A stretch of DNA of 36,155 nt from Lachnospiraceae bacterium (GTDB taxonomy: Bacteria > Bacillota > Clostridia > Lachnospirales > Lachnospiraceae): positions 1-36,155 of the forward strand of contig JAEEVK010000021.1 of NCBI GenBank assembly GCA_016287095.1, in the 5' to 3' direction. Below the pieces are notes generated by a model that did no database searches, was not told where the DNA came from, and saw nothing but the letters and a program-made list of their open reading frames with translations. A program made the position numbers and the translations under genes. Position 1 is the stretch's first letter. The number at the start of each line of letters is the position of its first letter. This document shows, piece after piece, positions 1-21,192 of this stretch.

Positions 1-266
1 ATTTGTTATTGCAAGATGTACGATGCTTGAAGCCATTTGATTCCCTGCCTTTTGTGTTTTATGTGAAAAGTATAACAAAGATGCAGACTGTAGTCAAATT
101 TTTATAAAGTGGCTCTAAAAATGTTGGAAGAATGGAAAAAGTGGCTCTAAAAATGTTGAAAATCTTACAAATGTGTAGTAGGATATGCATAGAATCTTAA
201 TTTTGTACTTTTTTAATGAAGAAGTGGATCAAGGATAAGCCGACAGGAAATGGTTAAGGAGTAAAT
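1..266 (+). promoter_or_regulatory. Promoter region of the GH2-GH3 operon with two direct repeats
   Basis: This stretch holds no gene that I can support. Two identical 21-base direct repeats lie at 106-126 and 138-158. Each begins AAAGTGGCTC and ends ATGTTG, and their starts are 32 bases apart, about three helical turns. The second repeat runs into a likely promoter, TTGAAA at 156-161 and TAGGAT at 179-184 with a 17-base spacer. A ribosome binding site AAGGAG lies at 256-261 just before the ATG at 267. Tandem repeats abutting the -35 box are typical for AraC-type activators, but no such regulator is in the window. In bases 1-105 I see nothing else. Confidence 0.55.
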
Positions 267-4605: not shown

Positions 4606-5007
4606 ATGGTATCGACAAGAGGCAGGTATGCCATACGTGTAATGATAGATCTGGCAGAAAATCATGACGGAAATTATATACCGCTGAAGGATATAGCGGC
4701 CAGGCAGGAGATTTCAAAAAAATATCTTGAGATCATAGTAAAGGATATGGTAGCAGGAGGTCTGGTGGTAGGAGCCAGCGGAAAGGGCGGCGGATATAAG
4801 CTGTGCCGTGAGCCCGAGGAGTATTCGGTAGGAGAGATACTTGAGCTTATGGAGGGTACTATGGCTCCTGTAGCCTGTGTAGCCGATAAAAGCATAGTAT
4901 GTCCGAGAAAAGACGGGTGCCATACTTTGCCTATGTGGGCTGAGTTTGACGAGCTGGTTCACAACTTCTTTTATAGTAAGAAGCTGACCGATCTGATAAA
5001 AAAATAA
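4606..5007 (+). CDS. iscR: Rrf2-family transcription regulator, IscR/CymR type
   Basis: This is a 133-residue winged-helix repressor of the Rrf2 family. It starts MVSTRGRYAIRVMIDL, carries the recognition region around ISKKYLEIIVKDM, and has a wing rich in Gly (GKGGGYKL). C91, C99 and C105 sit where IscR binds its [2Fe-2S] cluster, so it probably senses Fe-S or cysteine status. Bacillus CymR lacks these cysteines. I chose the ATG at 4606, with GAGAGG nine bases upstream, because the upstream in-frame start at 4540 lies within the -35 box. It is followed by iscS-iscU-cysE. Matching dyads at four promoters in this window suggest it controls Fe-S assembly, serine acetylation, sulfur import and the MetY/CysK enzymes. 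The regulon is inferred and the family is clear. Confidence 0.92.
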   Translation: MVSTRGRYAIRVMIDLAENHDGNYIPLKDIAARQEISKKYLEIIVKDMVAGGLVVGASGKGGGYKLCREPEEYSVGEILELMEGTMAPVACVADKSIVCPRKDGCHTLPMWAEFDELVHNFFYSKKLTDLIKK

Positions 5008-5009
5008 TT

Positions 5010-5043
5010 ACCTATTGACAAAGTAGGTGAATGGGTGTATAAT
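5010..5043 (+). promoter_or_regulatory. iscS-iscU-cysE promoter with an Rrf2-type operator
   Basis: TTGACA at 5015-5020 and TATAAT at 5038-5043 have a 17-base spacer. The dyad ACCTATTGACAAAGTAGGT at 5010-5028 overlaps the -35 box, so a bound protein would block RNA polymerase. The same 19-mer, differing at one base, stands at 7782-7800 and 19559-19577. Transcription should start near 5050, leaving a leader of only about 27 bases. Confidence 0.85.
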
Positions 5044-7781: not shown

Positions 7782-7815
7782 ACCTATTGACATAGTAGGT
7801 GAGTGATGATATAAT
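7782..7815 (+). promoter_or_regulatory. Sulfur operon promoter with an Rrf2-type operator
   Basis: TTGACA at 7787-7792 and TATAAT at 7810-7815 are 17 bases apart. The dyad ACCTATTGACATAGTAGGT at 7782-7800 covers the -35 box and is identical to the one at 19559-19577. A hairpin GTTATCA/TGATAAC stands upstream at 7735-7755, as it also does before the metY promoter. Transcription should start near 7822 and run through the leader into the ten-gene operon. Confidence 0.87.
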
Positions 7816-7861
7816 CTCCAACATCAGATACGAAAACGAATTAAGAAAGGGGGCGTTAGAT

Positions 7862-7981
7862 ATGAACCATACAGCTATTCGCAGTTATTATTCATACATG
7901 TGTCGAATGCAGTTCTCCCGGGCAATCAATATGGCCAGGGTGTTCGGCAGTTTGTCCTTACGCCCTGATATGAGACAATAG
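7862..7981 (+). CDS. Leader peptide 1, putative cysteine-sensing attenuator peptide
   Basis: This 39-residue open frame begins at an ATG preceded by AAAGGGGG at 7846-7853. Its core, MCRMQFSRAINMARV, matches leader peptide 2 (start 19645) in the pattern R-M-Q-x-S-R-A-[IV]-[ND]-M-A, with synonymous changes between the two. The Cys codon TGT is at 7901-7903. The next codons include CTCCCGGGCAA at 7915-7925, which can pair with the 5' arm of the terminator at 8011. A longer in-frame reading from 7799 would start inside the promoter and is rejected. I infer that ribosome stalling at Cys exposes the antiterminator strand. Translation of the frame is not proven. Confidence 0.72.
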   Translation: MNHTAIRSYYSYMCRMQFSRAINMARVFGSLSLRPDMRQ

Positions 7982-8010
7982 ATATATTATTGTGCATATG
8001 AGCCATTTTG

Positions 8011-8043
8011 CCCGGGAGCATTTTTGCCCCGGGTTTTTATTTT
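8011..8043 (+). terminator. Conditional terminator of the sulfur operon leader
   Basis: CCCGGGAGCA at 8011-8020 pairs with TGCCCCGGG at 8025-8033, nine pairs with one bulged A and a TTTT loop, followed by TTTTTATTTT. It lies about 40 bases before the first operon gene, so it must be bypassed for expression. Confidence 0.83.
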
Positions 8044-8084: not shown

Positions 8085-9242
8085 ATGAGTGATGACAAAA
8101 TAAAAATTAACAGAACACGTCTGTTGTGTGAATTTATCAGACTTACATCCTTTGATTCCGAATCCTTCAATGAAAAAAGGATTTCCGAATATCTAAAAGT
8201 AAAGCTCAAGGAACTGGGACTTAAAGTTGAAACAGACACAGTCGGTGATTTATTAAAGGAAATATCACCGGGTTTAACAGGCACAACCTCAAACATATAT
8301 GCCACGCTAAAAGGGAATAAAAACATACCTCCCATTCTCTTCTCAGCACATATGGATACAGTAAAACCCGGGAATGGAAAAAAAGCTGTGATCCGTCAGG
8401 ATGGAAAGATAACATCTAAAGGAAATACGGTTTTGGGAGCTGACGATGTTTCAGGTTTGGTTTCTATTATAGAAGCGCTGACAGTGATAAAAGAAAACAA
8501 GATAAACACAGGAGACATAGAAATAGTTCTTACAGTAGCTGAGGAACCATATTGTGTGGGGAGCAGATACCTGCTGTATGACAAGATTAAATCTAAAGAA
8601 GGGTATGTTCTTGATCTGAACGGATCGGTTGGGAGAGCCGCATTAGCAGCCCCGTCAATACTTTCAATCAGTATAAAGGTTAATGGAAAATCCGCACATG
8701 CCGGTTTTTCACCCGAACAGGGGATAAATGCATTGTCGATAGCCGCCGGGGCTTTAGCTAATCTTAAGACAGGACATGTATATGAGGATGTGACAGTAAA
8801 CTTCGGTACCATTATCGGGGGAACAGGTAAGAATATAGTTCCGGAAACAGTAGAGATTGAAGGAGAGATACGAAGTCTGGAACATGAAAAAGCAATAGCC
8901 GAAACCGAAAAGATAAAAACCGAGTTTGAAAGATTTGCAAGAGAATATGGAGGAAGCGTTGAGGTTACTGTAACAGAACAGCTACATTCTTATAGGGTTA
9001 TAAAGGAAAGGAATGTAGTTAAACGTTTCATAAAAGCAGCAAGAGAGGCAGAACGATGTATAAAGCCGGAATGCATTGACACTTTTGGGGGCAGTGATGC
9101 TAACCGGCTAAATAAAAATGGAATTGAAACAATAGTACTGGCATGTGGCATGGAAAACTGCCACAGTACCGGGGAATATACAAGTATTGAGGAGCTGGAG
9201 AAATCCACAGAACTTACGTTAAGGCTTATGACAGCTGATTAA
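8085..9242 (+). CDS. M20-family metallopeptidase, PepT-like
   Basis: This 385-residue dizinc enzyme of the peptidase T / M20 amidohydrolase group is probably cytoplasmic. The expected metal ligands are visible: H89 in SAHMDT, D120 in LGADDVSG, catalytic E153 and ligand E154 in VAEEPY, D177 in VLDLNG, and H360 in ENCHSTGEY. The central dimerisation domain spans about residues 190-300. It may cleave a di- or tripeptide, or an N-acyl amino acid, to release a cysteine derivative. In Bacillus the sulfur-salvage operons for S-(2-succino)cysteine carry an M20 deacetylase next to an acetyltransferase and an ABC importer. The same three activities are present in this operon. It is the first gene behind attenuator 1. 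Family sure, substrate unknown. Confidence 0.87.
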   Translation: MSDDKIKINRTRLLCEFIRLTSFDSESFNEKRISEYLKVKLKELGLKVETDTVGDLLKEISPGLTGTTSNIYATLKGNKNIPPILFSAHMDTVKPGNGKKAVIRQDGKITSKGNTVLGADDVSGLVSIIEALTVIKENKINTGDIEIVLTVAEEPYCVGSRYLLYDKIKSKEGYVLDLNGSVGRAALAAPSILSISIKVNGKSAHAGFSPEQGINALSIAAGALANLKTGHVYEDVTVNFGTIIGGTGKNIVPETVEIEGEIRSLEHEKAIAETEKIKTEFERFAREYGGSVEVTVTEQLHSYRVIKERNVVKRFIKAAREAERCIKPECIDTFGGSDANRLNKNGIETIVLACGMENCHSTGEYTSIEELEKSTELTLRLMTAD

Positions 9243-9277
9243 ATATATTATAAAACATATTTGGAGGATTTTTAATC

Positions 9278-10564
9278 ATGAGAAAAAATAATATTAAAGG
9301 ATCAAAATTAGGAGTTTTAGTAGCAGGAATTATATTTATTACAGGATCACTCAGCGGTTGTGGTACCGCAAAGAGTGTAGCTGATGATACCTCGGGTACA
9401 CAGAAGGTAGAGGCAAGCGAGATACAGTCAAAAAATGAAGAAACCAAGAATACTGAGAACGGTAGTAACGATCAAATAACATCGAACAATGAAGATAACA
9501 AAGAGAAGACAACAGAGAAAAAAGAACTGTCACCGTTAAGTGTATCATACCCGGCAGGTAATATAAGGGTAACGGTTAATATCCTGGCACTTCAGAAAGG
9601 ATATTTCGCAGAGGAAGGTTTGACAGTAAATCCTGTAGCGATAGGTGGAAATAATGCTTTGACAGCAATTAACGAAGAAAATGGAGAACTGGATATACTT
9701 ACAGCCGGGTTTGTTCCAGATGTCCAGGCTATAGGATCGGGTTATGATCTGACATTTATTGCAGGTACAGCTGTTGAAGGAGGAGCGGTTATTGCTAAGA
9801 AAGGAAATGCAGATAAGTTTAAGGGAACAGATCTGATCTTAAATCTTGATCAGGTTACAAATGCTAAACTTGGTTTCTCCAGAAATGAGGCTGCCTGGAT
9901 TGTTACCAGACAGTATCTCCTTGATAACGGTGTTGCAGCAGATACTATTGCAGCAATAGAAGATGAAGCGAGTGGAAATATTTCCTATTATGAGGATCAG
10001 ACGGCTACCGCTCAGGCAGTTCAAAAGGGTGAGGTTGAACTTGGATTCCTTCCTATGGAGTTTGCGTTACTTTATGCAGATGCATACGATCTTGAGATTG
10101 TAGCAGCAGCGGGAGACTTATTACCTAATTATGTATGCTGCCGTGAAGTAACATCAAAGAAAAGACTGTCAGATAAATATGATTCTTATGTGGCATATGA
10201 AACAGCACGAATCAGAGCATTTGAGTATTATAAGAAGGGTGAAACCGATGCGGAGATCAAAGCTGATGTGGTTAAGACAGTGGCTGAGTACTCAGGAAAA
10301 GAACCGGATTATGTAGAAACCTATCTTTATGGAGGTGTAACAAAGTTTGCGGTAGATCCCAATACCAACGGGATACAAAAATATATTACAGCAGCTTATA
10401 ACTCAGGTGTATTTACAGGAAATGCCGTAGATTTTGGAACATATGATATCAAGCAGAATATTGATACATCAGCATATAAGAAAGCTTTGGATAATTTAAT
10501 TGCAGAGAATCCGGATAATACTTTCTATACAGGATTACTTACACAGTTTACTGAGAGTAATTAA
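9278..10564 (+). CDS. ABC transporter substrate-binding lipoprotein, SsuA/TauA (NMT1) type
   Basis: This 428-residue exported lipoprotein has an N-terminal hydrophobic segment and a lipobox SLSGC with C28. A long low-complexity linker rich in S, N, E and K follows to about residue 85, then a periplasmic-binding fold of the sulfonate/taurine/NMT1 family (YPAGNIRVTVNILALQKGYFAEEGL, then TAGFVPDVQAIGSG). The linker should hold the binding domain away from the cell surface. GGAGG precedes the ATG. The matching ATPase and permease are encoded at 13916 and 14740, separated from it by three enzyme genes, which suggests the enzymes belong to the same pathway as the import. The ligand is likely a sulfonate or other organosulfur compound, judged from context only. 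Confidence 0.88.
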   Translation: MRKNNIKGSKLGVLVAGIIFITGSLSGCGTAKSVADDTSGTQKVEASEIQSKNEETKNTENGSNDQITSNNEDNKEKTTEKKELSPLSVSYPAGNIRVTVNILALQKGYFAEEGLTVNPVAIGGNNALTAINEENGELDILTAGFVPDVQAIGSGYDLTFIAGTAVEGGAVIAKKGNADKFKGTDLILNLDQVTNAKLGFSRNEAAWIVTRQYLLDNGVAADTIAAIEDEASGNISYYEDQTATAQAVQKGEVELGFLPMEFALLYADAYDLEIVAAAGDLLPNYVCCREVTSKKRLSDKYDSYVAYETARIRAFEYYKKGETDAEIKADVVKTVAEYSGKEPDYVETYLYGGVTKFAVDPNTNGIQKYITAAYNSGVFTGNAVDFGTYDIKQNIDTSAYKKALDNLIAENPDNTFYTGLLTQFTESN

Positions 10565-10589
10565 ATAATAAAAACGAGGTACACTTTAT

Positions 10590-11519
10590 ATGGCAAAGAT
10601 TTATGACAGTATATTGGAATTGGTTGGAAATACCCCATTACTGCATTTGAACAGAATAGAGGAAGAAGAAAAACTCCAGGTAAAGCTTTATGCAAAGGTA
10701 GAAAGCTATAATCCGGCCGGAAGCGTAAAAGACAGGGCCGCACTTCACATGATAGAATCTGCAGAAGCAGAGGGAAGACTGAAGGAAGGCGGAACTATAG
10801 TAGAGGGTACATCCGGAAATACCGGCATAGGACTGGCTATGGTTGGTGCAGTAAAAGGTTATCGGACAGTAATATGCATGGCAGAGGGTGCCAGTAAAGA
10901 GAAAATAAAGATACTTAAGGCATATGGAGCTGAAGTAGAACTTACTCCAAAATCCAATGGATTTGGTGGTGGAAGTAAAAAAGCGGTAGATTTAGCTGAA
11001 AGCATACCGGGAGCATTCAGACCGGCTCAGGGAGAGAACCTCCACCATCCGGAAACACATTATCAGACTACAGGTCCGGAGATATGGAGGGCTACGAAAG
11101 GTAAGGTTGATATCTTTGTGGCTGCGGTAGGTACCAGTGGAACATCAGGAGGGATAGGAAGATTCTTAAAAGAACAGAATCCTCAGATCGAGATATATGG
11201 AGTTGAACCTAAGGGATGCCCGGTATTAAATGGTGGAGAAGCCGGACCTCATAAGATACAGGGTATCGGGGGTGGAGCAATCTGTCCCATAACGGATCTG
11301 AAGCTATACAAAGAAATTCTTCTGTGCTCGGACGAGGATGCATATAAATATGCAAGGCTTTGTCCCAAGAAGGAAGGATTACTGATAGGAATAAGCGCAG
11401 GTGCTGCGCTGTGGGCGGCAGTAACGGTTGCAAAACGTCCGGAAAACAAGAACAAGAATATAGTCGTGCTTTTCCCTGATGGTGGAAACAAGTACCTGTC
11501 AAGTGATCTTTATACATAA
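10590..11519 (+). CDS. Divergent cysteine synthase / cystathionine beta-synthase-like PLP enzyme
   Basis: This is a 309-residue fold-type II PLP enzyme of the CysK group, with the PLP lysine in NPAGSVKDR and the TSGNTG loop. Several positions differ from the two normal CysK copies in this window. The phosphate-binding GTGGT is GTSGTSGG here. PGQF is replaced by PAQGENLHHPE. MPxTMSxER is replaced by MAEGASKEK. These are around the substrate and cofactor pocket, so the substrate probably differs from O-acetylserine plus sulfide, perhaps another leaving group or nucleophile. It lies 25 bases after the binding-protein gene and before the GST-like gene. It could also be a cysteine-related lyase or a CysK-like regulator. 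Confidence 0.82.
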   Translation: MAKIYDSILELVGNTPLLHLNRIEEEEKLQVKLYAKVESYNPAGSVKDRAALHMIESAEAEGRLKEGGTIVEGTSGNTGIGLAMVGAVKGYRTVICMAEGASKEKIKILKAYGAEVELTPKSNGFGGGSKKAVDLAESIPGAFRPAQGENLHHPETHYQTTGPEIWRATKGKVDIFVAAVGTSGTSGGIGRFLKEQNPQIEIYGVEPKGCPVLNGGEAGPHKIQGIGGGAICPITDLKLYKEILLCSDEDAYKYARLCPKKEGLLIGISAGAALWAAVTVAKRPENKNKNIVVLFPDGGNKYLSSDLYT

Positions 11520-11629
11520 AACTAAATATAGAAGACATCTCCAATAGATATGATTGAGTAAATGAAACAAAATGTATAAATAGAAATAATATCTGAGTAA
11601 AAAAACATAAAAGAAAAGAGGAAGAGAAG

Positions 11630-12877
11630 ATGAGTGAAAATAAATCAGTAGATTATGGCAGTGCATGCAGTTTGGAACTTAGAAGAAAAAAAGTAAATGG
11701 AACAGTTGATTATACAGATGCAGAAGCAGAGGAGCACGCTAAGGAAGTTGGAGCAAGACCGAGACCTAAGGAGACAATAAGTGAAATAGATGAAAGAGGA
11801 GCATTTATAAGGCAGCCTAATGCATTTATAAAACCATTTGGCTCAAAGGAAGGAGATTTTAAAGCAGAAGCAAACAGGTTTGGAATATACTGGGCTCATG
11901 GATGCCACTGGTCAAACCGCCCGGTTATCGTAAGAGATATACTTGGACTTGATGGAGTGATTTCAGAGGTTCATACAACACATAGCGGTGAAACTAATGT
12001 ATACGGACATGGATTTGCTGATTATCCGGGACACAAGGATCCTTTGGCAGGTGCATACTTCTTAAGTGAATTTTATAAGAATGCAGATCCTGATTATCAG
12101 GGCAGGGCAACTACACCTACATTTGTTGACCTGAAGGAAAAGAAGGCAGTCAACAATGATTATCATCGTCTGACAAACTATATTGAGGTTCAATTCAGAC
12201 CTTTCCAGCCGGTAGATGCACCGGATCTTTATCCTAAAAAGTATCGAAAAGAAATAGATGAGTTTAATGACTGGCTCTTCCCTCATATCAATAACGGACA
12301 TTATCGTATGGCATTTTGCCAGTCCTGGGAAGCATATAACGAGGCATATGAAGATTTCTTTGATTCTTTGGATAAACTGGATAAGAGATTAGCAGATAAT
12401 CGTTTCATATTCGGAGATTATATTACTGACTCGGATATCAGACTTTATGTAACATTGGTAAGATGGGAAACAAGCTACTATAGAAATGTAGGACCAATAA
12501 AGAAGAGGATTACGGAGTATCCTAATATTTGGGGATATGTAAAAGATTTATTTGCATTACCCGTATTTAGAAAGTATACATTTTTTGAGTTCCCTAAAGA
12601 CGGTAATGCTGATCTGTTTAGGAGCTATGCATATAGAATAGCATCACAGGTTCCGTATGATGAGCTTTGGAAAACAGATGGCAGCAGAAAATCTTTAAGT
12701 CAGGATCCCGAAAATGTTTATTTGAAACATCCTAAGGGAGAATCTCCTGAAGATTACCAGTCAGAGATTTCAACAACAATATGGAATTCACCCAAGTGGG
12801 AAGACAGAAATCCTTTAAATGGCACTCTTTCAACCGATGCATCCATTAATCCTATAACATCGAAATTAAGAGATTAG
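11630..12877 (+). CDS. Glutathionyl-hydroquinone reductase-like (Xi-class GST) protein
   Basis: This 415-residue protein resembles the YqjG/ECM4 family. A thioredoxin-like N-terminal domain carries the active-site cysteine C92 in HGCHWSNRP, where family members usually have CPWAxR. A helical C-terminal domain (DFFDSLDKLDKRLADNRFIFGDYITDSDIRLYVTLVRW) follows. Known members reduce S-aryl or beta-keto thioether adducts of glutathione, breaking a C-S bond through the cysteine. Most clostridia do not make glutathione, so the natural substrate here is probably a different thioether. It is about 60-90 residues longer than E. coli YqjG, mostly as N- and C-terminal extension. It is embedded between two CysK-type genes in an importer operon, pointing to sulfur salvage. 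The assignment to the family is good and the function is open. Confidence 0.82.
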   Translation: MSENKSVDYGSACSLELRRKKVNGTVDYTDAEAEEHAKEVGARPRPKETISEIDERGAFIRQPNAFIKPFGSKEGDFKAEANRFGIYWAHGCHWSNRPVIVRDILGLDGVISEVHTTHSGETNVYGHGFADYPGHKDPLAGAYFLSEFYKNADPDYQGRATTPTFVDLKEKKAVNNDYHRLTNYIEVQFRPFQPVDAPDLYPKKYRKEIDEFNDWLFPHINNGHYRMAFCQSWEAYNEAYEDFFDSLDKLDKRLADNRFIFGDYITDSDIRLYVTLVRWETSYYRNVGPIKKRITEYPNIWGYVKDLFALPVFRKYTFFEFPKDGNADLFRSYAYRIASQVPYDELWKTDGSRKSLSQDPENVYLKHPKGESPEDYQSEISTTIWNSPKWEDRNPLNGTLSTDASINPITSKLRD

Positions 12878-12923
12878 TAAAGAGACAGGTTTAGTACATA
12901 AAAAATAGAAAGCAGGTACGGCT

Positions 12924-13850
12924 ATGAAAACAGCAGAAAATATATCAGACCTGATTGGAGATACTCCTTTATTGCGCTTGAACAGATTTGCAGAGAAAAG
13001 CAACTTGAAGGCTGAAATCATTGCTAAATTGGAATGGTTTAGCCCTGCAGGAAGCATAAAAGACAGAATTGCTTTATATATGATAAGGGATGCTGAAGAA
13101 AAGGGATTACTAAAAAAGGATTCGGTGATAATTGAACCAACCAGCGGAAACACAGGGATTGGACTTGCTGCAGTTGCGGCGCACAAAGGATACAGAGTTA
13201 TAATTGTAATGCCAGATACGATGAGTATTGAAAGACAGAATATCTTGAAGGCTTATGGCGCGGAAGTCATACTTACAGATGGAAAAGGAGGAATGAAGGC
13301 ATCTATTGCTAAGGCCAAAGAGCTGGCTGCCTCCATTCCCCACAGTTTCATACCCGGACAGTTTACAAGCAGTTCTAATCCGAAAGCACATTATGAAACA
13401 ACCGGTCCTGAGATATGGCGAGATACCGGACGGCAGGTTGATTTCCTTGTGGCAGGAGTCGGAACCGGCGGCACTCTTTCAGGTGCCGGAAAATACCTGA
13501 AGGAAGTGAATCCGGATATAAAAATCATCGCTGTAGAACCAAAGGATTCTCCACTTCTTTCTGTTGGGACAACTGGTGCTCATAAATTACAGGGTCTTGG
13601 AGCAGGTTTTATTCCTCTTACACTTGATACGGAGATATATGATGAAGTGTTGGCTGTAACAACGGCTGAAGCCATCGGTGCATCAAACCTTTTGGCAAAA
13701 GAGGAGGGAGTTTTGGCAGGTATTTCGTCCGGAGCGGCTTTGCATGCAGCTGAAGAAATCGCAAAAAGAGAAGAGAATCAGGGAAAACGAATTGTTGTAA
13801 TCTTCCCGGATAATGGTGATCGGTATTTATCTACTGAGTTGTATGAGTAG
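12924..13850 (+). CDS. cysK: Cysteine synthase (O-acetylserine sulfhydrylase)
   Basis: This 308-residue PLP enzyme makes cysteine from O-acetylserine and sulfide. It has the full set of CysK motifs: SPAGSIKDR with the PLP lysine, [41 protein letters not shown], the phosphate loop GTGGT, and DNGDRYLST near the C-terminus. It is the second CysK-like gene of the operon and the third in the window counting 21271. Its codon use is more AT-rich than that of the 21271 copy. That suggests the 21271 gene is the housekeeping form and this one serves the salvage operon. Confidence 0.93.
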
Positions 13851-13915
13851 ATTAATGAGCAAGTAAATAGGATATATCATTTTTAGAGAAGTATATGGAA
13901 CGGAGGGACCAAACT

Positions 13916-14743
13916 ATGGAAGGTCTTCAGAATGAGTCAAAGAATACTCCGAAAAATAAAATAGAAATTAAGGATGTAAACTTTGATTATATAGATAAGA
14001 AAAGTAAATATGAAGCCTTGAAGGATATTAATCTAAGTATTAAAGAAGGCGAATTTATCTGTATTCTGGGGGCTTCCGGATGTGGTAAATCAACTTTACT
14101 GAGTTTGTTGGCAGGACTTAATAAGGCAAAATCAGGGGAAATTCTCGTGGATGGAAATCCTGTCAAGGGTCCCGGGACTGACAGAGCTGTTGTGTTCCAA
14201 CAATATTCTCTTTTCCCTTGGTTAACCGTAAAAGGGAATGTGCTTTTCGGAATCAAGCAGAGTGGGAGGAAGCTGGGGAGAAAGGAAAGAGAAAAACTGG
14301 CGGAAAAATACGTGGAAAGTGTTGGACTTTCAGGAGCTATAAACAGATATCCCTCTCAGCTGTCAGGCGGCATGAAACAAAGAGTGGCTGTGGCAAGAGC
14401 TTTGGCTTTGGAATCCGATATTCTGCTTTTGGATGAGCCATTTGGTGCCATAGATCCGAGACTCAGATTAGAATTACAGGAACTTGTTTCAAAGCTTTGT
14501 ACCGAAAACCATAAGACCGTGGTTTTTATAACTCATGATATAGATGAAGCTATTTTACTGGCTGATCGTGTAGTTGTTATGGAACCGGGACGGATAAAGA
14601 ATATTATAAAGGTTCGTCTGTCACATCCGAGAATCCGGGAAGAATTATCGGGAACGGATGAATATGAAAAGCTTCACAGACAACTGATTTCGGCATTTTA
14701 TGATCAGGTAGAAGAGCAGATTGATGCGGGGGTAGCACTATGA
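13916..14743 (+). CDS. ABC transporter ATP-binding protein, SsuB/TauB type
   Basis: This 275-residue ATPase energises import of the ligand bound by the lipoprotein encoded at 9278. Walker A is GASGCGKST (K58), the signature is LSGGMKQR, Walker B is ILLLDEPFGAID, and the switch histidine is in FITHDIDEA. The pattern VFQQYSLFPWLTVKGNV matches nitrate/sulfonate/taurine importers. I prefer the ATG at 13916 with GGAGGG at 13902-13907. The upstream ATG at 13895 would add seven residues and lacks a good ribosome binding site. It overlaps the permease gene by four bases (ATGA), which implies coupled translation. Confidence 0.93.
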   Translation: MEGLQNESKNTPKNKIEIKDVNFDYIDKKSKYEALKDINLSIKEGEFICILGASGCGKSTLLSLLAGLNKAKSGEILVDGNPVKGPGTDRAVVFQQYSLFPWLTVKGNVLFGIKQSGRKLGRKEREKLAEKYVESVGLSGAINRYPSQLSGGMKQRVAVARALALESDILLLDEPFGAIDPRLRLELQELVSKLCTENHKTVVFITHDIDEAILLADRVVVMEPGRIKNIIKVRLSHPRIREELSGTDEYEKLHRQLISAFYDQVEEQIDAGVAL

Positions 14744-15678
14744 AAGGAAAACTACGATTGGATAAAGGCCTTATTGGCGGCCTGATAATAGCCACAGTGC
14801 TAATGGTAGTAAATATTGTGCTTGCTTCAGTACTCCCGTATTTTACTTCACATAAGGTTTATTATGACAGTACGGCATATGTAGTAGTCATACTGATTTC
14901 TTATGTGATTTATATTATCAGATTGTTTTTACTAAAAAAGAAAAGTGTTAATGATGTAGCAGTAGTTTTATTTGGTTTTTTCATATTATGGGAAACAGCG
15001 TATAAGTTAGGCTGGATACATAATGATCTGTTACTTCCGTCTCCTGAAGGACTTTTCCATGTTTTTGTTGAAAAGTCAGGAGAAATAACAGCGGATGTAT
15101 GGGGGTCTGTCAGACTGCTGTTTGTCGGATTTATACTGGCAGCAGTATTTGGAACACTTTTAGGACTTTTAGCCGGCTGGATTCCCAGGGTAAGGGAAGT
15201 GCTTTTGCCGATATCAAATGTAATAACCCTGATACCTCCGTTAATGTTTTCGGCATACCTTATCATGATTTTATCTACTTTTAGGCAGGCGGCAATAGCA
15301 GTAATATTTTTCGCAGTATTCTGGCCTACTTTTCAGGGAACGGTTGTACGTGTCGGTCAGATAGATAAGCAGATCATTGAAGCTGCCAAAACGATGGGAG
15401 TAGGAACCTTTGGGATGCTGGTAAAAGTTATATTCCCTTATTGCCTGCCCGGAATAATCGGGAGTTTATCAAAGAGTTTAAGAGGCGCATTTATGTGTCT
15501 GGCCGGTGCTGAGATGCTCGGAGTTAATCTCGGAATAGGATATTTTACTGAAAAATATAAAAGCTTTGCGGATTACAGATGTGTGCTTGCCGGTATTGTT
15601 ACGGTAGGAGTCATAACAACCGTAATTGATATGGCAGTCAATAAAGCAAAAAATGTGCTGATAAAATGGGAGAACTAA
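14740..15678 (+). CDS. ABC transporter permease, SsuC/TauC type
   Basis: This 312-residue membrane protein is the permease partner of the ATPase that overlaps it by ATGA. The core carries the cytoplasmic EAA loop (EAAKTMGVGTFGMLVKVIFPYCLPG), which docks on the ATPase. It has about 60 more residues than usual for the family. The excess is at the N-terminus, where two extra hydrophobic helices (about residues 9-30 and 46-68) come before the normal start. The gene ends directly at the next ATG. The extra helices are a feature worth noting but are not explained. Confidence 0.9.
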   Translation: MKGKLRLDKGLIGGLIIATVLMVVNIVLASVLPYFTSHKVYYDSTAYVVVILISYVIYIIRLFLLKKKSVNDVAVVLFGFFILWETAYKLGWIHNDLLLPSPEGLFHVFVEKSGEITADVWGSVRLLFVGFILAAVFGTLLGLLAGWIPRVREVLLPISNVITLIPPLMFSAYLIMILSTFRQAAIAVIFFAVFWPTFQGTVVRVGQIDKQIIEAAKTMGVGTFGMLVKVIFPYCLPGIIGSLSKSLRGAFMCLAGAEMLGVNLGIGYFTEKYKSFADYRCVLAGIVTVGVITTVIDMAVNKAKNVLIKWEN

Positions 15679-16155
15679 ATGAAAGCTATAGAAGTTAAAG
15701 ATGAATGGGCCAGAGCGGGAGTGTATTATGTGAGAACCGAGGCGATGGTTTTAGGATTTAATCTTAATCTGGAAGGAGAGTTTTCAGGAGATGACCGTGA
15801 TTCGGAATATGTACTTGTGACGGATGACAATGGCAAGCCTTTAAGCACCAACAGGATACATCTGCTTCCTGAAAGAGGATTTGCAAAAATAGAAAGGGTG
15901 GCTACGGTTTCATACGCAAGAAAGCTGGGAGCGGGTAAATATGGGATAGAAGCCGCAGAGAAAATAATAAGTGAAAAAGGTTATAAAAAAATAGTGATTA
16001 CCAGTCGTGAGGAAGCTGCGGGTTTTTATGAAAAACTTGGTTATAAAAAAAGACCTGATATGAATCCGGATACATTGGAAAAGTTTAAAGAGGGAGAGAC
16101 TATTAAAGTAAGGGATCCGAGATTTGTATGTGTATATATGGAGAAGGATCTGTGA
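15679..16155 (+). CDS. GNAT-family N-acetyltransferase
   Basis: This 158-residue acetyltransferase is of the ElaA/GNAT type. The acetyl-CoA loop is in RVATVSYARKLGAGKYGIEAAEKI, and the closing strand-helix is ITSREEAAGFYEKLGYKK. Its ATG follows the permease stop with no gap, so it is translationally linked to the importer. In Bacillus organosulfur salvage, small GNAT enzymes acetylate S-modified cysteines before C-S cleavage. Its place beside an importer and with an M20 enzyme fits such a role. That role is an analogy, since sequence alone gives only the family. Confidence 0.85.
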   Translation: MKAIEVKDEWARAGVYYVRTEAMVLGFNLNLEGEFSGDDRDSEYVLVTDDNGKPLSTNRIHLLPERGFAKIERVATVSYARKLGAGKYGIEAAEKIISEKGYKKIVITSREEAAGFYEKLGYKKRPDMNPDTLEKFKEGETIKVRDPRFVCVYMEKDL

Positions 16156-16164
16156 AAGGAGGAC

Positions 16165-17262
16165 ATGATGTATTCTATTGAAACACGATGTATACATGGA
16201 GAAAAACATAATAATCCTGATCAGAACTATTCTATAAGTTTTCCTATTTATCAGACTGCTTCTTTCAGTCATTTAACTCCGGGACATAATCCTACAGGAT
16301 TTGATTATTCAAGGGAATCTAATCCAACCAGAAGGTATTTGGAAGAAACTATGAGCTCTTTGGAAGGTGCAAACGATACTATCGCATATGCTTCAGGAAT
16401 GGCAGCAATTTCTGCTTTCTTTGAGTATTTCAGTCCGGGAGACCACATCCTGTGCGGAGAAGATCTTTATGGTGGAGTTGTAAGATTGATAGAGCTGGTC
16501 TGTAAAAAGAACAGATATGAAGTAGAATATGTTGATACGACAGATATAAATGCTATAGAAAAAAACATTAAATCAAATACAAAAGCAATATATTTTGAAA
16601 CACCTACAAATCCTATGATGAAGGAAACAAATATCCCGGAAGTTGCAAAAATAGCATCAAAGTATAATGTTTTAGTTGCAGTAGATAATACTTTTATGAC
16701 TCCATATTTTAGAAATCCTATAAAGGACGGAGCAGATATCGTTCTTCATTCAGGAACTAAGTATATCAGTGGGCATAACGATACAGTATGTGGGTTTTTA
16801 TGTTGTAAAACCAAAGAACTGAGTGACAGGTTCAGGCTGTTGTCAAAAACTACCGGCGCAACTTTGGGACCGTTTGAGTGCTGGCTGGTTTTAAGAGGAC
16901 TGAAGACTTTGGCTGTAAGGATGGATAGACATAGTTCAAATGCGCGCGAGATTAAGGCTTGGCTTGAAAAAAGAGATGATGTGGACAATGTATTTTATGC
17001 CGGAAGCGGAATGATTTCTTTTTATGTGAATTCTGCAGATAAAGCTCTATCAATACTGAAAAACATAAAACTGATAACTTTTGCGGAAAGCTTGGGCGGT
17101 ACAGAAAGTCTTCTTACATATCCAGTTGTTCAGACTCATCCGGATGTCCCCGTTGAGCAAAGGGAAAAAATAGGAATAAATGACAGACTGTTGCGTTTGT
17201 CGGTGGGCCTGGAAGCTCCAAGTGATCTGATAGATGATCTTGAGAAAGCTTTTAATGTCTGA
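16165..17262 (+). CDS. Cys/Met metabolism PLP enzyme (cystathionine gamma-synthase/lyase family)
   Basis: This 365-residue fold-type I PLP enzyme has the cofactor tyrosine and arginine motif YSRESNPTRRYLE. The PLP lysine is in HSGTKYISGHNDT and the C-terminal signature is RLLRLSVGLE. The family interconverts cysteine, homocysteine and methionine, or eliminates thiols from them. It is slightly short for the family (380-400), with a compact region before the C-terminal domain. The exact reaction cannot be read from the motifs, and gamma-synthase, gamma-lyase and methionine gamma-lyase all remain possible. AAAGGAGG precedes the start. A second ATG three bases on is equally possible. It is followed by the PatB-type lyase, giving a complete transsulfuration pair. 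Confidence 0.87.
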   Translation: MMYSIETRCIHGEKHNNPDQNYSISFPIYQTASFSHLTPGHNPTGFDYSRESNPTRRYLEETMSSLEGANDTIAYASGMAAISAFFEYFSPGDHILCGEDLYGGVVRLIELVCKKNRYEVEYVDTTDINAIEKNIKSNTKAIYFETPTNPMMKETNIPEVAKIASKYNVLVAVDNTFMTPYFRNPIKDGADIVLHSGTKYISGHNDTVCGFLCCKTKELSDRFRLLSKTTGATLGPFECWLVLRGLKTLAVRMDRHSSNAREIKAWLEKRDDVDNVFYAGSGMISFYVNSADKALSILKNIKLITFAESLGGTESLLTYPVVQTHPDVPVEQREKIGINDRLLRLSVGLEAPSDLIDDLEKAFNV

Positions 17263-17288
17263 TTTGGAATAACAAAAAGAGGTATTTC

Positions 17289-18476
17289 ATGAGTGAAAGA
17301 AATCTGGACTTTGATAGAGTTATCAACAGGAAAAATACTAAATGTCTTAAATATGACTTTGCTGTTAAAAGGGGTTATCCGGAGGATGTACTTCCTCTAT
17401 GGGTAGCCGATATGGATTTTAGAACCAGTTCATATGTGGAAGATGCCATAAAAAATATAGCTGACTTAAATATATATGGATATACCAATACTCAGCATAA
17501 TGACGGTTTTTTCGAGGCAGTAGCAGATTGGATGAAAAGACATCACGGATGGGATGTTGAGGAAGCATGGCATGTGAAAACCCCGGGAGTATGCTTTGCA
17601 ATAGCAACTGCGGTGAGGGCATTAACCGAAAAAGGGGATTCGGTAATAATACAACAGCCTGTATATTACCCTTTTGCAAATATAATTAAACAAAACGAAA
17701 GAAGGATGATAAGTTCTGATCTGGTTAAGGATGAAGAAGGCTATTACAGTATAGATTTTGATGATTTTGAGAAAAAGATCATTGTAAACTCTGTAAAACT
17801 GTTTATTTTATGTAATCCTCATAATCCGACAGGACGGGTGTGGAACAGGGATGAATTAAAAAGACTTGGAGATATTTGTTTGAAACATAATGTAAAGGTT
17901 TTTTCGGATGAGATACATTTTGATTTTATCTGGAAAGGAAAACATAATGTGTTTCAGGAGATTGATGACGGATTTAAAATTATAACCATAACTGCTACAT
18001 CACCAAGCAAGACATTTAATCTTGCCGGGTTGCAGCAGTCTAATATTTTTATACCTGATCCTAATCTGAGACAAAGATTTATCAGGACATTGGATGCTAC
18101 AGGATATGATGAACCCAATATTATGGGGATAGCTGCTGCGGAGGCTGCATACCGTTACGGGGATGAATGGTATAAAGAAGTCAGACAGTATATACAAAGT
18201 AATATTGATCTGACGGATGAATATGTAAGGAACAATCTTCCGTTTGTGAAAATGAGCGAGACGCAGGGGACATATCTGGTTTGGCTGGATTTTAATAAAT
18301 CCGAACTTGCACCTAAAGAGATAGATGATATTATATGTAATAAAGCAAAGCTTTGGTTGGACAGTGGCAGGATATTTGGAGATTCCGGTGCAGGATTTGA
18401 ACGGATAAATGTCGCCTGCCCTAAAACAGTATTGCTTACGGCATTGGAGAGAATTAAAAGAGCATTTGAGACTTGA
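17289..18476 (+). CDS. PatB/MalY-type cystathionine beta-lyase (C-S lyase)
   Basis: This 395-residue class I/II aminotransferase-fold PLP enzyme has the MalY/PatB start FDRVINRKNTKCLKYD, the motif LPLWVADMDF, the site CNPHNPTGRVW and the PLP lysine in SPSKTFNLAGLQ. Enzymes of this group split cystathionine or other S-substituted cysteines into thiol, pyruvate and ammonia. That makes it the most likely C-S lyase of the operon. Its stop codon overlaps the -35 box of the LysR gene promoter. No clear terminator lies between the two genes, so the operon may extend into the regulator. Confidence 0.92.
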   Translation: MSERNLDFDRVINRKNTKCLKYDFAVKRGYPEDVLPLWVADMDFRTSSYVEDAIKNIADLNIYGYTNTQHNDGFFEAVADWMKRHHGWDVEEAWHVKTPGVCFAIATAVRALTEKGDSVIIQQPVYYPFANIIKQNERRMISSDLVKDEEGYYSIDFDDFEKKIIVNSVKLFILCNPHNPTGRVWNRDELKRLGDICLKHNVKVFSDEIHFDFIWKGKHNVFQEIDDGFKIITITATSPSKTFNLAGLQQSNIFIPDPNLRQRFIRTLDATGYDEPNIMGIAAAEAAYRYGDEWYKEVRQYIQSNIDLTDEYVRNNLPFVKMSETQGTYLVWLDFNKSELAPKEIDDIICNKAKLWLDSGRIFGDSGAGFERINVACPKTVLLTALERIKRAFET

Positions 18477-19558: not shown

Positions 19559-19592
19559 ACCTATTGACATAGTAGGTAATATGTGTTATAAC
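19559..19592 (+). promoter_or_regulatory. metY-cysK promoter with an Rrf2-type operator
   Basis: TTGACA at 19564-19569 and TATAAC at 19587-19592 are 17 bases apart. The dyad ACCTATTGACATAGTAGGT at 19559-19577 overlaps the -35 box and is identical to that at 7782-7800. Confidence 0.87.
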
Positions 19593-19644: not shown

Positions 19645-19767
19645 ATGACTACTACATATTATAAAACAAATGTCATGTGTTGTTATCGAATGCAAAACTC
19701 CCGGGCAGTTGATATGGCTGGGGCAGTTGAAGGGTACTTCATGCGCCTCATAACAGAACGATGTTGA
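19645..19767 (+). CDS. Leader peptide 2, putative cysteine-sensing attenuator peptide
   Basis: This 40-residue frame begins at an ATG with AGGAGG at 19630-19635. The core MCCYRMQNSRAVDMAG shares R-M-Q-x-S-R-A-[IV]-[ND]-M-A with leader peptide 1. Two adjacent Cys codons (TGT TGT, 19678-19683) come just before the strand CTCCCGGGCA at 19698-19707, and the last sense codon is also Cys. The distance from the second Cys codon to that strand is 14 bases, so a ribosome stalled on cysteine should leave it free. Changes such as CAG/CAA, GCC/GCT, Ile/Val and Asn/Asp between the two leaders argue that the peptide itself is conserved. Confidence 0.75.
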   Translation: MTTTYYKTNVMCCYRMQNSRAVDMAGAVEGYFMRLITERC

Positions 19768-19794: not shown

Positions 19795-19826
19795 TGCCCG
19801 GGAGCTGAAATGCCTCGGGCATTTTT
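19795..19826 (+). terminator. Conditional terminator of the metY leader
   Basis: TGCCCGGGAGC at 19795-19805 pairs with GCCTCGGGCA at 19812-19821, with six strong outer pairs and a less regular top, and is followed by TTTTTC. The start of metY is about 85 bases downstream. That intervening stretch is very A-rich and holds the ribosome binding site AAGGAG. Confidence 0.75.
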
Positions 19827-19911: not shown

Positions 19912-21192
19912 ATGAGTAATTATAAATTTGAGACATTACAGTTACACGTTGGACAGGAACAGGCAGATCCCACTACAGATTCAAGGGCGGTTCCGATTTA
20001 CCAGACTACTTCTTATGTATTCCATAACAGTAAGCACGCAGCAGACAGATTTGGTCTTGCAGATGCAGGTAACATTTATGGCAGACTTACCAATACCACT
20101 CAGGATGTATTAGAGAAGAGACTTGCAGCTCTTGAGGGTGGCAGCGCAGCACTTGCTCTTGCATCGGGTGCAGCAGCTATTACATATACTATAGAAGCTT
20201 TAGCAGCAAACGGCGGACATATCGTAGCACAGAAGACTATCTACGGTGGCAGCTACAATTTACTTGCACATACACTTCCCCAGTACGGCATCGAGACCAC
20301 ATTCGTTGATGCTCATAATCTGGCAGAGGTTGAGGGAGCGATCAAGGAAAATACCAGAGCCATCTACTTAGAGACTCTCGGCAATCCTAACAGCGACATC
20401 CCGGATGTAGATGCTATCTCAGAGATAGCTCACAAGTACGGACTTCCCGTAGTAGTTGATAATACATTTGGTACACCTTATCTTTTCAGAGCTTTTGAGC
20501 ATGGTGCAGATATAGTAGTTCATTCAGCTACCAAATTTATCGGTGGACATGGAACAACTCTTGGTGGTATAATTGTTGAGTCGGGCAAGTTTAACTGGAA
20601 GGCCAGCGGAAAGTATCCGAATATCGCAGCTCCCAATCCCAGCTACCACGGAGTATCTTTCTATGATGCTGTAGGACCTGCTGCATTTGTTACATTTATC
20701 AGAGCGATACTTCTTCGTGATACCGGTGCTACCATTTCTCCTTTCAACGCATTCCTTCTGCTTCAGGGCGTTGAGACGTTATCACTCAGACTTGACAGAC
20801 ATGCTGAAAACACAAAGAAGGTAGTTGAGTTCTTAAAGAACCATCCTAAGGTAGCAAAGGTTAATCATCCTTCACTTCCCGATCATCCCGATCACGAGCT
20901 TTATAAGAGATACTTCCCTAACGGCGGCGGATCGATATTCACATTTGATATCAAGGGCGGCAAGGAAGAGGCTTGGAAGTTTATTGATAACCTTAAGATT
21001 TTCTCACTTCTTGCAAATGTTGCAGATGTTAAGAGTCTGGTTATCCATCCCGCAACCACTACTCATTCACAGCTGACCGAAGAAGAACTTTTAGATCAGG
21101 GTATCAATCAGAGTACCATCAGACTTTCAATCGGTACAGAGCATGTTGATGATATAATCGCAGATCTTGAGAATGGATTTGCTGCTGTTTAA
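19912..21192 (+). CDS. metY: O-acetylhomoserine sulfhydrylase
   Basis: This 426-residue PLP enzyme makes homocysteine from O-acetylhomoserine and sulfide. It shows the MetY pattern [26 protein letters not shown], the cofactor residues in [16 protein letters not shown], the PLP lysine in [13 protein letters not shown], and the long MetY insert [10 protein letters not shown]...[10 protein letters not shown] that separates it from cystathionine gamma-synthases. Codons are more regular and GC-richer than in the 8-18 kb operon, as expected of a strongly expressed gene. It lies behind attenuator 2 and is followed by a stable hairpin and cysK. Confidence 0.95.

Follow-up and report, generated by a model that had tools for sequence, protein, structure and literature searches.

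A short leader reading frame upstream of a ten-gene sulfur operon carries a Cys codon and the 5' arm of an antiterminator, and an intrinsic terminator follows it. The best explanation is probably a cysteine-specific, ribosome-mediated transcription attenuator that senses charged tRNA-Cys; judging from sequence comparison, we give this reading a probability of about 0.85. The same design recurs ahead of sulfur genes in many other bacteria of the gut and rumen. Model and pattern searches yielded at least 172 non-redundant leaders, the one described first included, in Lachnospiraceae, other Clostridia and Anaerovibrio.

Layout of the leader and its operon

The window, that is, the whole stretch of 36,155 nt analysed here, contains the following elements at the first leader (copy 1).

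7849..7856, + strand: Shine-Dalgarno region GGGGGCGT of leader 1; GGGCGT can pair with ACGCCC 7960-7965
7862..7981, + strand: leader peptide ORF 1, 39 aa (translation and relatives)
7901..7903, + strand: Cys codon TGT, candidate stall site (Cys at −4 to −1 in 82/82 usable leaders)
7901..7910, + strand: proposed anti-antiterminator 5' arm UGUCGAAUGC, partner 7940-7949 (complementarity peak)
7915..7925, + strand: strand 1, CTCCCGGGCAA, antiterminator 5' arm, inside the ORF (inverted repeat and covariation)
7932..7935, + strand: TGGC, antiterminator extension, partner GCCA 8002-8005 (4/4 pairs changed on both sides)
7938..7942, + strand: inner hairpin 5' arm, partner CGCCC 7961-7965 (5/5 pairs changed on both sides)
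7961..7965, + strand: inner hairpin 3' arm and alternative Shine-Dalgarno partner (covariation, own-versus-swapped test)
7966..8001, + strand: variable hairpin, from the leader end to strand 2 (MFE against shuffles)
8008..8018, + strand: strand 2, pairs with strand 1 or with the terminator 3' arm (both helices tested)
8010..8043, + strand: intrinsic terminator with T-rich tail (stem 8010-8034, tail to 8043)
8085..18476, + strand: ten-gene sulfur operon (profile matches; ABC permease named by eye)

Translation of ORF 7862-7981 (+) gave a peptide of 39 codons, MNHTAIRSYYSYMCRMQFSRAINMARVFGSLSLRPDMRQ followed by a stop, with a single mid-frame Cys codon. A gap of 11 bases separates TGT 7901-7903 from strand 1, and CTCCCGGGCAA is an 11-base complement of TTGCCCGGGAG (8008-8018). 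An earlier note on this DNA had described the 39-residue frame, the Cys codon, the strand 11 bases on and its 11-base complement, and all of them were recovered by translation and a repeat check. Its terminator, placed at 8011-8043, was right within one base, and its ten-gene sulfur operon does comprise ten genes, from 8085 to 18476. The second leader, the Shine-Dalgarno pairing, the hairpin over the Cys codon and the common promoter palindrome described below are additional to that note.

The terminator hairpin of copy 1 had a computed folding energy of −18.3 kcal/mol. To gauge chance, 300 dinucleotide shuffles of 7816-8043 were searched for perfect inverted repeats whose arms lie 40 nt or more apart; the longest repeat reached 11 bases in 1 of the 300. 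The motif TCCCGGGCA occurred five times in the window versus 0.09 expected, and four of these occurrences were the arms of two separate leaders. Searching for it led to leader 2, which is followed by cysK and a gene for O-acetylhomoserine sulfhydrylase.

19645..19767, + strand: leader ORF 2, MTTTYYKTNVMCCYRMQNSRAVDMAGAVEGYFMRLITERC and a stop (Cys codons 19678-19683 and 19762-19764)
19698..19707, + strand: strand 1 of copy 2, CTCCCGGGCA (TCCCGGGCA search)
19795..19824, + strand: strand 2 and terminator of copy 2 (repeat search, folding)

The final codon of leader 2 before the stop encodes Cys (RC and stop); this feature is common to many relatives.

Leader 1 sits between a cysE-type gene and the operon. 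The first five operon genes encode, in order, a PepT/M20-like hydrolase, a substrate-binding protein, a cysteine synthase, a GST-like protein and a cysteine synthase. The last five encode an ABC ATPase, an ABC permease, a GNAT protein, a cystathionine synthase/lyase-type enzyme and a PatB C-S lyase. The operon is followed by a LysR gene, which has its own promoter-like site. The gene set (M20 hydrolase, GNAT, ABC importer, C-S lyase, LysR neighbour) presumably resembles the ytmI-ytnM sulfur-compound operon of B. subtilis. The operon may break down S-modified or N-acyl cysteines.

Relatives of the leader

Searching 61 genomes with the peptide returned 22 places. Several were chance matches; inspection of the hits showed that further species of the genus carry leaders built in this way. 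Covariance model R1 was built from 11 leaders, and the wider model R2 from 99 matches. R1 matched in 45/397 family genomes. R2 matched in 16/24 genus, 13/391 class and 5/398 phylum genomes, where each count includes the source genome, one further family genome was part of the class set and one class genome part of the phylum set; searches of the large sets used stricter filters, with weak matches lost. In the source genome itself (217 contigs, 85% completeness), the covariance model found only the two window leaders; a third match (E 7.5) was the reverse strand of copy 2. A pattern scan of named genomes added at least 119 stretches. The taxa among the matches listed were Lachnospiraceae, Ruminococcaceae, Saccharofermentans, Blautia, Christensenella, Anaerovibrio, and further or unplaced Clostridia and Firmicutes. 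The isolate Anaerovibrio lipolyticus DSM 3074 (L057) is one carrier of the leader. One of the 80 names among the matches listed, a Gammaproteobacterium (L074), lacked the leader build and was dropped as a chance match.

L074 and two leaders with a poor Shine-Dalgarno sequence were left out of the 143 pattern-found stretches. Removal of near-duplicates reduced 221 leaders to 174, and 172 remained after the exclusion of two that contained N or were too short. For the model-found leaders (n = 87), five (L189, L194, L195, L199 and L219; truncated, alignment-shifted or with a long insertion) were dropped from the codon counts, leaving 82 usable, and six from the folding calculations (n = 81).

The downstream gene was defined as the longest frame with a start at most 900 nt from the leader; 6 of the 172 leaders had no such frame. 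According to Pfam, 96 of 167 downstream genes encode Cys/Met-metabolism enzymes and 47 of 167 encode amino-acid-type binding proteins. The 78 genes after model-found leaders comprised 43 Cys/Met-metabolism PLP enzymes, 12 family-3 and 8 NlpA substrate-binding proteins, 3 GST-like proteins, 2 ABC ATPases, 2 M20, 1 PALP and 1 glutamate-cysteine ligase, with single matches to a short-chain dehydrogenase, a pyruvate-formate-lyase-like protein and a cyclase. The other 89 (88 after pattern-found leaders and the window gene at 19912) included 53 Cys/Met-metabolism PLP enzymes, 14 family-3 and 13 NlpA proteins, 3 permeases, 2 M20 and 1 PALP. No tRNA synthetase was among the Pfam families listed for the 167 genes (25 of 26 and 14 of 14 families).

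Several arrangements stood out among the relatives. In two records, leaders form opposite-orientation pairs a few hundred bases apart: L154:957-1095 (−) with L154:1573-1720 (+), and L145:5921-6059 (−) with L145:6443-6590 (+). This suggests a common divergent promoter region in each, the minus-strand matches being weak (33 bits). The stretch L085:1048-1196 contains the leader core twice in tandem, 127 bases apart with an N run between, which may be due to assembly. A leader in a same-genus genome (G011:C223:1339-1492, L232) encodes a peptide nearly identical to that of L071, a Saccharofermentans record, and perhaps lies on a stray contig.

Pairing and covariation of the leader RNA

Covariation of the antiterminator was assessed on 88 model-found matches, a set that still contains one spurious entry, the opposite strand of L029, which the palindrome produced. 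In an alignment fitted to the antiterminator structure, which favours that structure, 92.7% of the cells were paired, versus 85.3% after shuffling and 36–52% after sliding. Double-change cells numbered 121 versus 31.9 in the shuffles, and 19 of the 21 pairs showed changes on both sides. The strand 1–strand 2 helix was 97.2% paired; the two innermost antiterminator pairs were weak (68%). Compensating swaps between strand 1 and strand 2 were visible by eye (CTCCCAGGCA/TGCCTGGGAG and CTCCCGGACA/TGTCCGGGAG). These swaps turn the peptide segment SRA into SQA or SRT, and it is therefore the RNA, not the peptide, that is conserved there.

The pairing also emerged in an alignment-free comparison of own with swapped partners (n = 172), whose p values treat related leaders as independent. 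Strand 1 with strand 2 gave p = 7.7e-11. The terminator helix was 90.1% paired, versus 88.9% in shuffles and 20–68% after sliding, with 11 double-change cells versus 3.0. The antiterminator and the terminator are mutually exclusive: both helices need strand 2, and both are conserved. This covariation, the Cys codons and the 11-nt spacing of strand 1 from the conserved CGA (82/82 and 82/87, see below) and the downstream gene families point to cysteine as the signal and to a stall that would free the strand, as the earlier note had proposed.

The Shine-Dalgarno region, which is absent from both search models, had the inner hairpin 3' arm as its best partner. Own pairs reached −9.96 kcal/mol versus −7.82 kcal/mol for swapped pairs and were better in 121 of 172 leaders (p = 2.5e-11), while six other positions gave p values from 0.012 to 0.95. 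The region corresponding to the variable hairpin (7966-8001) had a mean MFE of −5.3 versus −3.3 in mononucleotide shuffles and was lower in 54 of 72 leaders.

The CGAAUGC segment 3' of the Cys codons showed a complementarity peak 30–50 nt downstream, at the inner hairpin 5' arm, with a mean duplex energy of −3.6 to −3.8 versus about −2.0 in shuffles (n = 81). The resulting hairpin over the Cys codon was paired in 71% of the cells, versus 33–51% after sliding but 70.6% after shuffling, and showed no covariation beyond the shuffles, because its 5' arm hardly varies. Its own-versus-swapped comparison gave p = 0.0039, little better than the control position of another test (p = 0.019). For strand 1 with the G-rich segment at +25 to +42, the difference was very small (own −9.77, swapped −9.69, p = 0.00013). 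Since the control position reached p = 0.019, weak p values in this comparison mean little.

Conserved codons and reading frame

The leader frame was open over the core in 81 of 87 leaders, versus 27 and 19 for the other two frames, and a Shine-Dalgarno-like sequence preceded most of the leader starts. A stop codon followed 57–81 nt after the conserved CGA in 66/82; L204, one of these 82 leaders, has a frame that ends before strand 1. At least one of the four codons before CGA encoded Cys in all 82 usable model-found leaders, and two or more did so in 69/82, compared with a Cys frequency of 5.2% elsewhere in the peptides. This conservation is partly built in, because both models hold TGT columns and the pattern imposes TGT. 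The Cys codons shift place or swap TGT for TGC among leaders, yet they persist. Where the last codon before CGA was Tyr, Pro, Ile, Met, Gly or Trp, Cys was kept further upstream. Strand 1 started 11 nt from CGA in 82 of the 87 model-found leaders.

Other residues were conserved as well, and these bear on a nascent-peptide arrest. According to this explanation, a conserved C-R-M-x-x-S-R-A peptide would halt the ribosome on cysteine or another sulfur compound, and the same RNA switch would operate downstream. TnaC, whose peptide arrests in response to tryptophan, provides a precedent. CGA was kept in 76/82 and Arg in 77/82, and the next codon was ATG (Met +1) in 82/82. Met occurred at −4 to −2 before CGA in 71/82, often directly 5' of the Cys cluster, and Cys was among the last two residues in 35/82. 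A plain starvation stall accounts for none of the four regularities (Met +1, Arg, upstream Met, terminal Cys). However, R-M and S-R-A are encoded by stretches that also serve as arms of the RNA pairings. Within S-R-A, Gln replaced R in 10/81 and Thr replaced A in 10/81, and 11 A-U pairs stood in place of G-C at each of the two matching helix positions. The number of Cys codons before CGA also varied from 1 to 4. We thus regard peptide arrest as improbable. Leader peptide 1 had no NCBIfam or Pfam match, and seven other leader peptides had none in NCBIfam.

Folding with and without a ribosome

Equilibrium folding was computed for four ribosome positions (means, n = 81). With the ribosome on strand 1, the antiterminator was lost (0.00) and the terminator formed (0.77). 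The ribosome stalled at Cys gave 0.58 for the antiterminator and 0.29 for the terminator, the ribosome-free RNA 0.53 and 0.32, and the ribosome at the stop codon 0.35 and 0.47. The antiterminator was favoured in 51/81 leaders when ribosome-free, in 55/81 when stalled and in 34/81 at the stop codon, so that the stall changes little.

Copy 1 showed antiterminator values of 0.88 ribosome-free, 0.90 stalled and 0.82 at the stop, and lost the structure only with the ribosome on strand 1. Copy 2 ran against the model: the stalled form had 0.34 for the antiterminator versus 0.55 for the terminator, and the form at the stop 0.89 versus 0.01. The masking and folding check suggested in the earlier note thus did not tell the stalled state of copy 1 from the ribosome-free one and went in the wrong direction for copy 2. 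In neither window copy does the switch appear in equilibrium folding; therefore, if it exists, it would have to be kinetic. We also folded the nascent RNA lacking strand 2. Here, the stall lowered the mean pairing of strand 1 from 0.67 to 0.61 and raised the inner hairpin from 0.11 to 0.20. In copy 1, the changes upon stalling had the expected direction, the hairpin over Cys falling from 0.90 to 0.00 and the inner hairpin rising from 0.01 to 0.41; in copy 2, the stall gave no change.

The split of the ribosome-free RNA between the two structures, together with the strong conserved structure, would suit a riboswitch-like leader RNA that binds a metabolite or a protein, needs no ribosome and carries the short ORF incidentally. 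We consider this very unlikely. The frame and the Shine-Dalgarno sequence are conserved, the Cys codons persist through shifts and synonymous swaps, and no Rfam family, T-box and SAM riboswitches included, matched at its gathering score. A T-box, a SAM riboswitch or another known RNA was rejected for the window on that basis; the sub-threshold Rfam matches around leaders 1 and 2 (5 and 4) all belonged to unrelated families.

Promoter and palindrome

The leader is preceded by promoter and operator-like elements, which recur in the window.

4606..5007, + strand: Rrf2-family regulator gene (TIGR00738 above cutoff; IscR and CymR models below theirs)
5010..5028, + strand: third palindrome site, before nifS-type cysteine desulfurase, nifU-type and cysE-type genes
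7782..7800, + strand: palindrome ACCTATTGACATAGTAGGT over the −35 element, candidate Rrf2/CymR-type operator (motif search)
7787..7815, + strand: promoter TTGACA-17-TATAAT, 12/12 consensus bases (sequence match)
19559..19577, + strand: same palindrome, upstream of leader 2 (motif search)

A promoter of the form TTGACN-16..18-TANNNT was present 5' of 140/174 leaders versus 3/174 shuffled sequences. The palindrome pattern ACCTANTGACANAGTAGGT had three sites in the source genome (5010-5028, 7782-7800 and 19559-19577) and none for the reversed control. Among the relatives, the arms ACCTA-N9-TAGGT scored 9 or 10 of 10 upstream of 125/174 leaders, with TTGA after ACCTA in 120 of the 125; mononucleotide-shuffled upstream regions scored at most 8. 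At the third site, the nifS-type gene is next to the Rrf2-family regulator gene; an attenuator was looked for there and not found. The IscR and CymR motifs are alike in Clostridium acetobutylicum and its relatives, according to the accessible part of PMC3828012. The Rrf2-family protein (4606-5007) is perhaps the reader of the palindrome.

It is hardly credible that the terminator, despite its position between two operons, only stops the transcript that arrives from the cysE-type gene or holds expression at a fixed level behind a non-regulatory leader, given the 12/12 consensus promoter between the cysE-type gene and the terminator and an antiterminator pairing that covaries before several kinds of genes.

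Comparison with known leaders

Enteric trp-type attenuators work through protector, antiterminator and terminator strands, and the ribosome-binding site of their leader pairs with a distal segment. The strand logic is the same here, but the ORF continues through the antiterminator strand, and cysteine replaces tryptophan as the predicted signal.

The uORFC-8-2 motif before cysS in Rhodobacterales, as presented in the available portion of PMC8632094, likewise has a uORF with two tandem Cys codons, a terminal U run and a proposed tRNA-Cys attenuation. In that portion, however, its Cys codons lie inside the first stem, and it is confined to Alphaproteobacteria and to cysS. The present leaders were judged not to be uORFC-8-2, which stands before cysS: the Pfam families listed for the 167 downstream genes included no tRNA synthetase. 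Actinobacterial leader peptides, in the part of PMC1262725 at hand, are also short ORFs with Cys codons before cys genes, but their Cys run lies near the stop and no conserved terminator-capable hairpin is described; here, the Cys codons are mid-frame and an intrinsic terminator follows. The mycobacterial polycysteine ORFs are leaderless by the title of Canestrari 2020. That type was ruled out for leader 1, whose Shine-Dalgarno sequence GGGGG (7849-7853) stands 8 nt 5' of the ATG and whose −10 box ends 47 nt before it.

Two Gram-positive systems are related in their logic. In the vmlR leader of B. subtilis, as far as the accessible text of PMC9226507 goes, a ribosome stalled in the uORF likewise blocks an anti-antiterminator, so that the antiterminator forms and intrinsic termination is prevented; the signal there is an antibiotic-stalled ribosome, not cysteine. 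The His leader peptides before hisS paralogs (PMC2965389) are likewise classical Firmicutes leader peptides, for histidine and in bacilli. The excerpted text of that paper reports such peptides as new to the Firmicutes, the earlier systems known to it being from Proteobacteria and Actinobacteria, ermC apart, and that of PMC1262725 states that the Firmicutes synthetase genes are mostly under T-box control, with none under classical attenuation. No cysteine attenuator in Clostridia was found in the literature accessible to the search. The cysteine leaders reported in the accessible parts of these sources are alphaproteobacterial or actinobacterial, and a cysteine attenuator variant in Clostridia and Anaerovibrio appears to be new.

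Proposed mechanism

When Cys-tRNA is short, the ribosome would stall at the Cys codon or codons of the proposed attenuator. With the usual ribosome footprint sizes taken for the stall geometry, a TGT codon in the A site would place the leading edge about 12–13 nt on, beside the first base of strand 1. Since the leading edge would end about at strand 1, the CGAAUGC arm would be covered, and strand 1, the inner hairpin and strand 2 would be free. In this stalled state, the antiterminator could form and RNA polymerase would read through. When cysteine is plentiful, the ribosome would translate past strand 1 and, on reaching the stop codon, cover the inner hairpin 3' arm. Strand 1 would then be masked, or trapped in the hairpin over the Cys codon, and the terminator would form. 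Later, the free CGCC arm could close the leader Shine-Dalgarno sequence and damp further rounds of leader translation. The palindromic operator over the −35 element, perhaps read by the Rrf2-family protein (4606-5007), would add control of initiation.

In B. subtilis, transcription outruns the ribosome, according to the part of PMC9226507 at hand. If the same held here by analogy, the timing of an attenuator would be difficult.

Meaning for the Clostridia

We lean, with some reserve, towards a broader picture, in which the cysteine attenuators of Clostridia and Anaerovibrio form a large family that extends over the regulon. The RNA would be a two-state device, the inner hairpin, the hairpin over the Cys codons and the Shine-Dalgarno-closing helix having common arms, so that one passing ribosome would both terminate transcription and shut leader translation. 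It would act jointly with an Rrf2-type operator over the −35 element, and the leading ribosome would keep pace with RNA polymerase or gate it, unlike in B. subtilis.

If true, the presence of cysteine leaders in many Clostridia of the gut and rumen would alter the picture of the Firmicutes, in which T-boxes dominate and leader peptides were a novelty. Cysteine-controlled genes could also be recognised by sequence in bacteria that do not lend themselves to manipulation, and the closeness of ribosome and RNA polymerase would become directly testable in these bacteria. Wide use of such attenuators would imply that, in these Firmicutes, the leading ribosome keeps up with or gates RNA polymerase.
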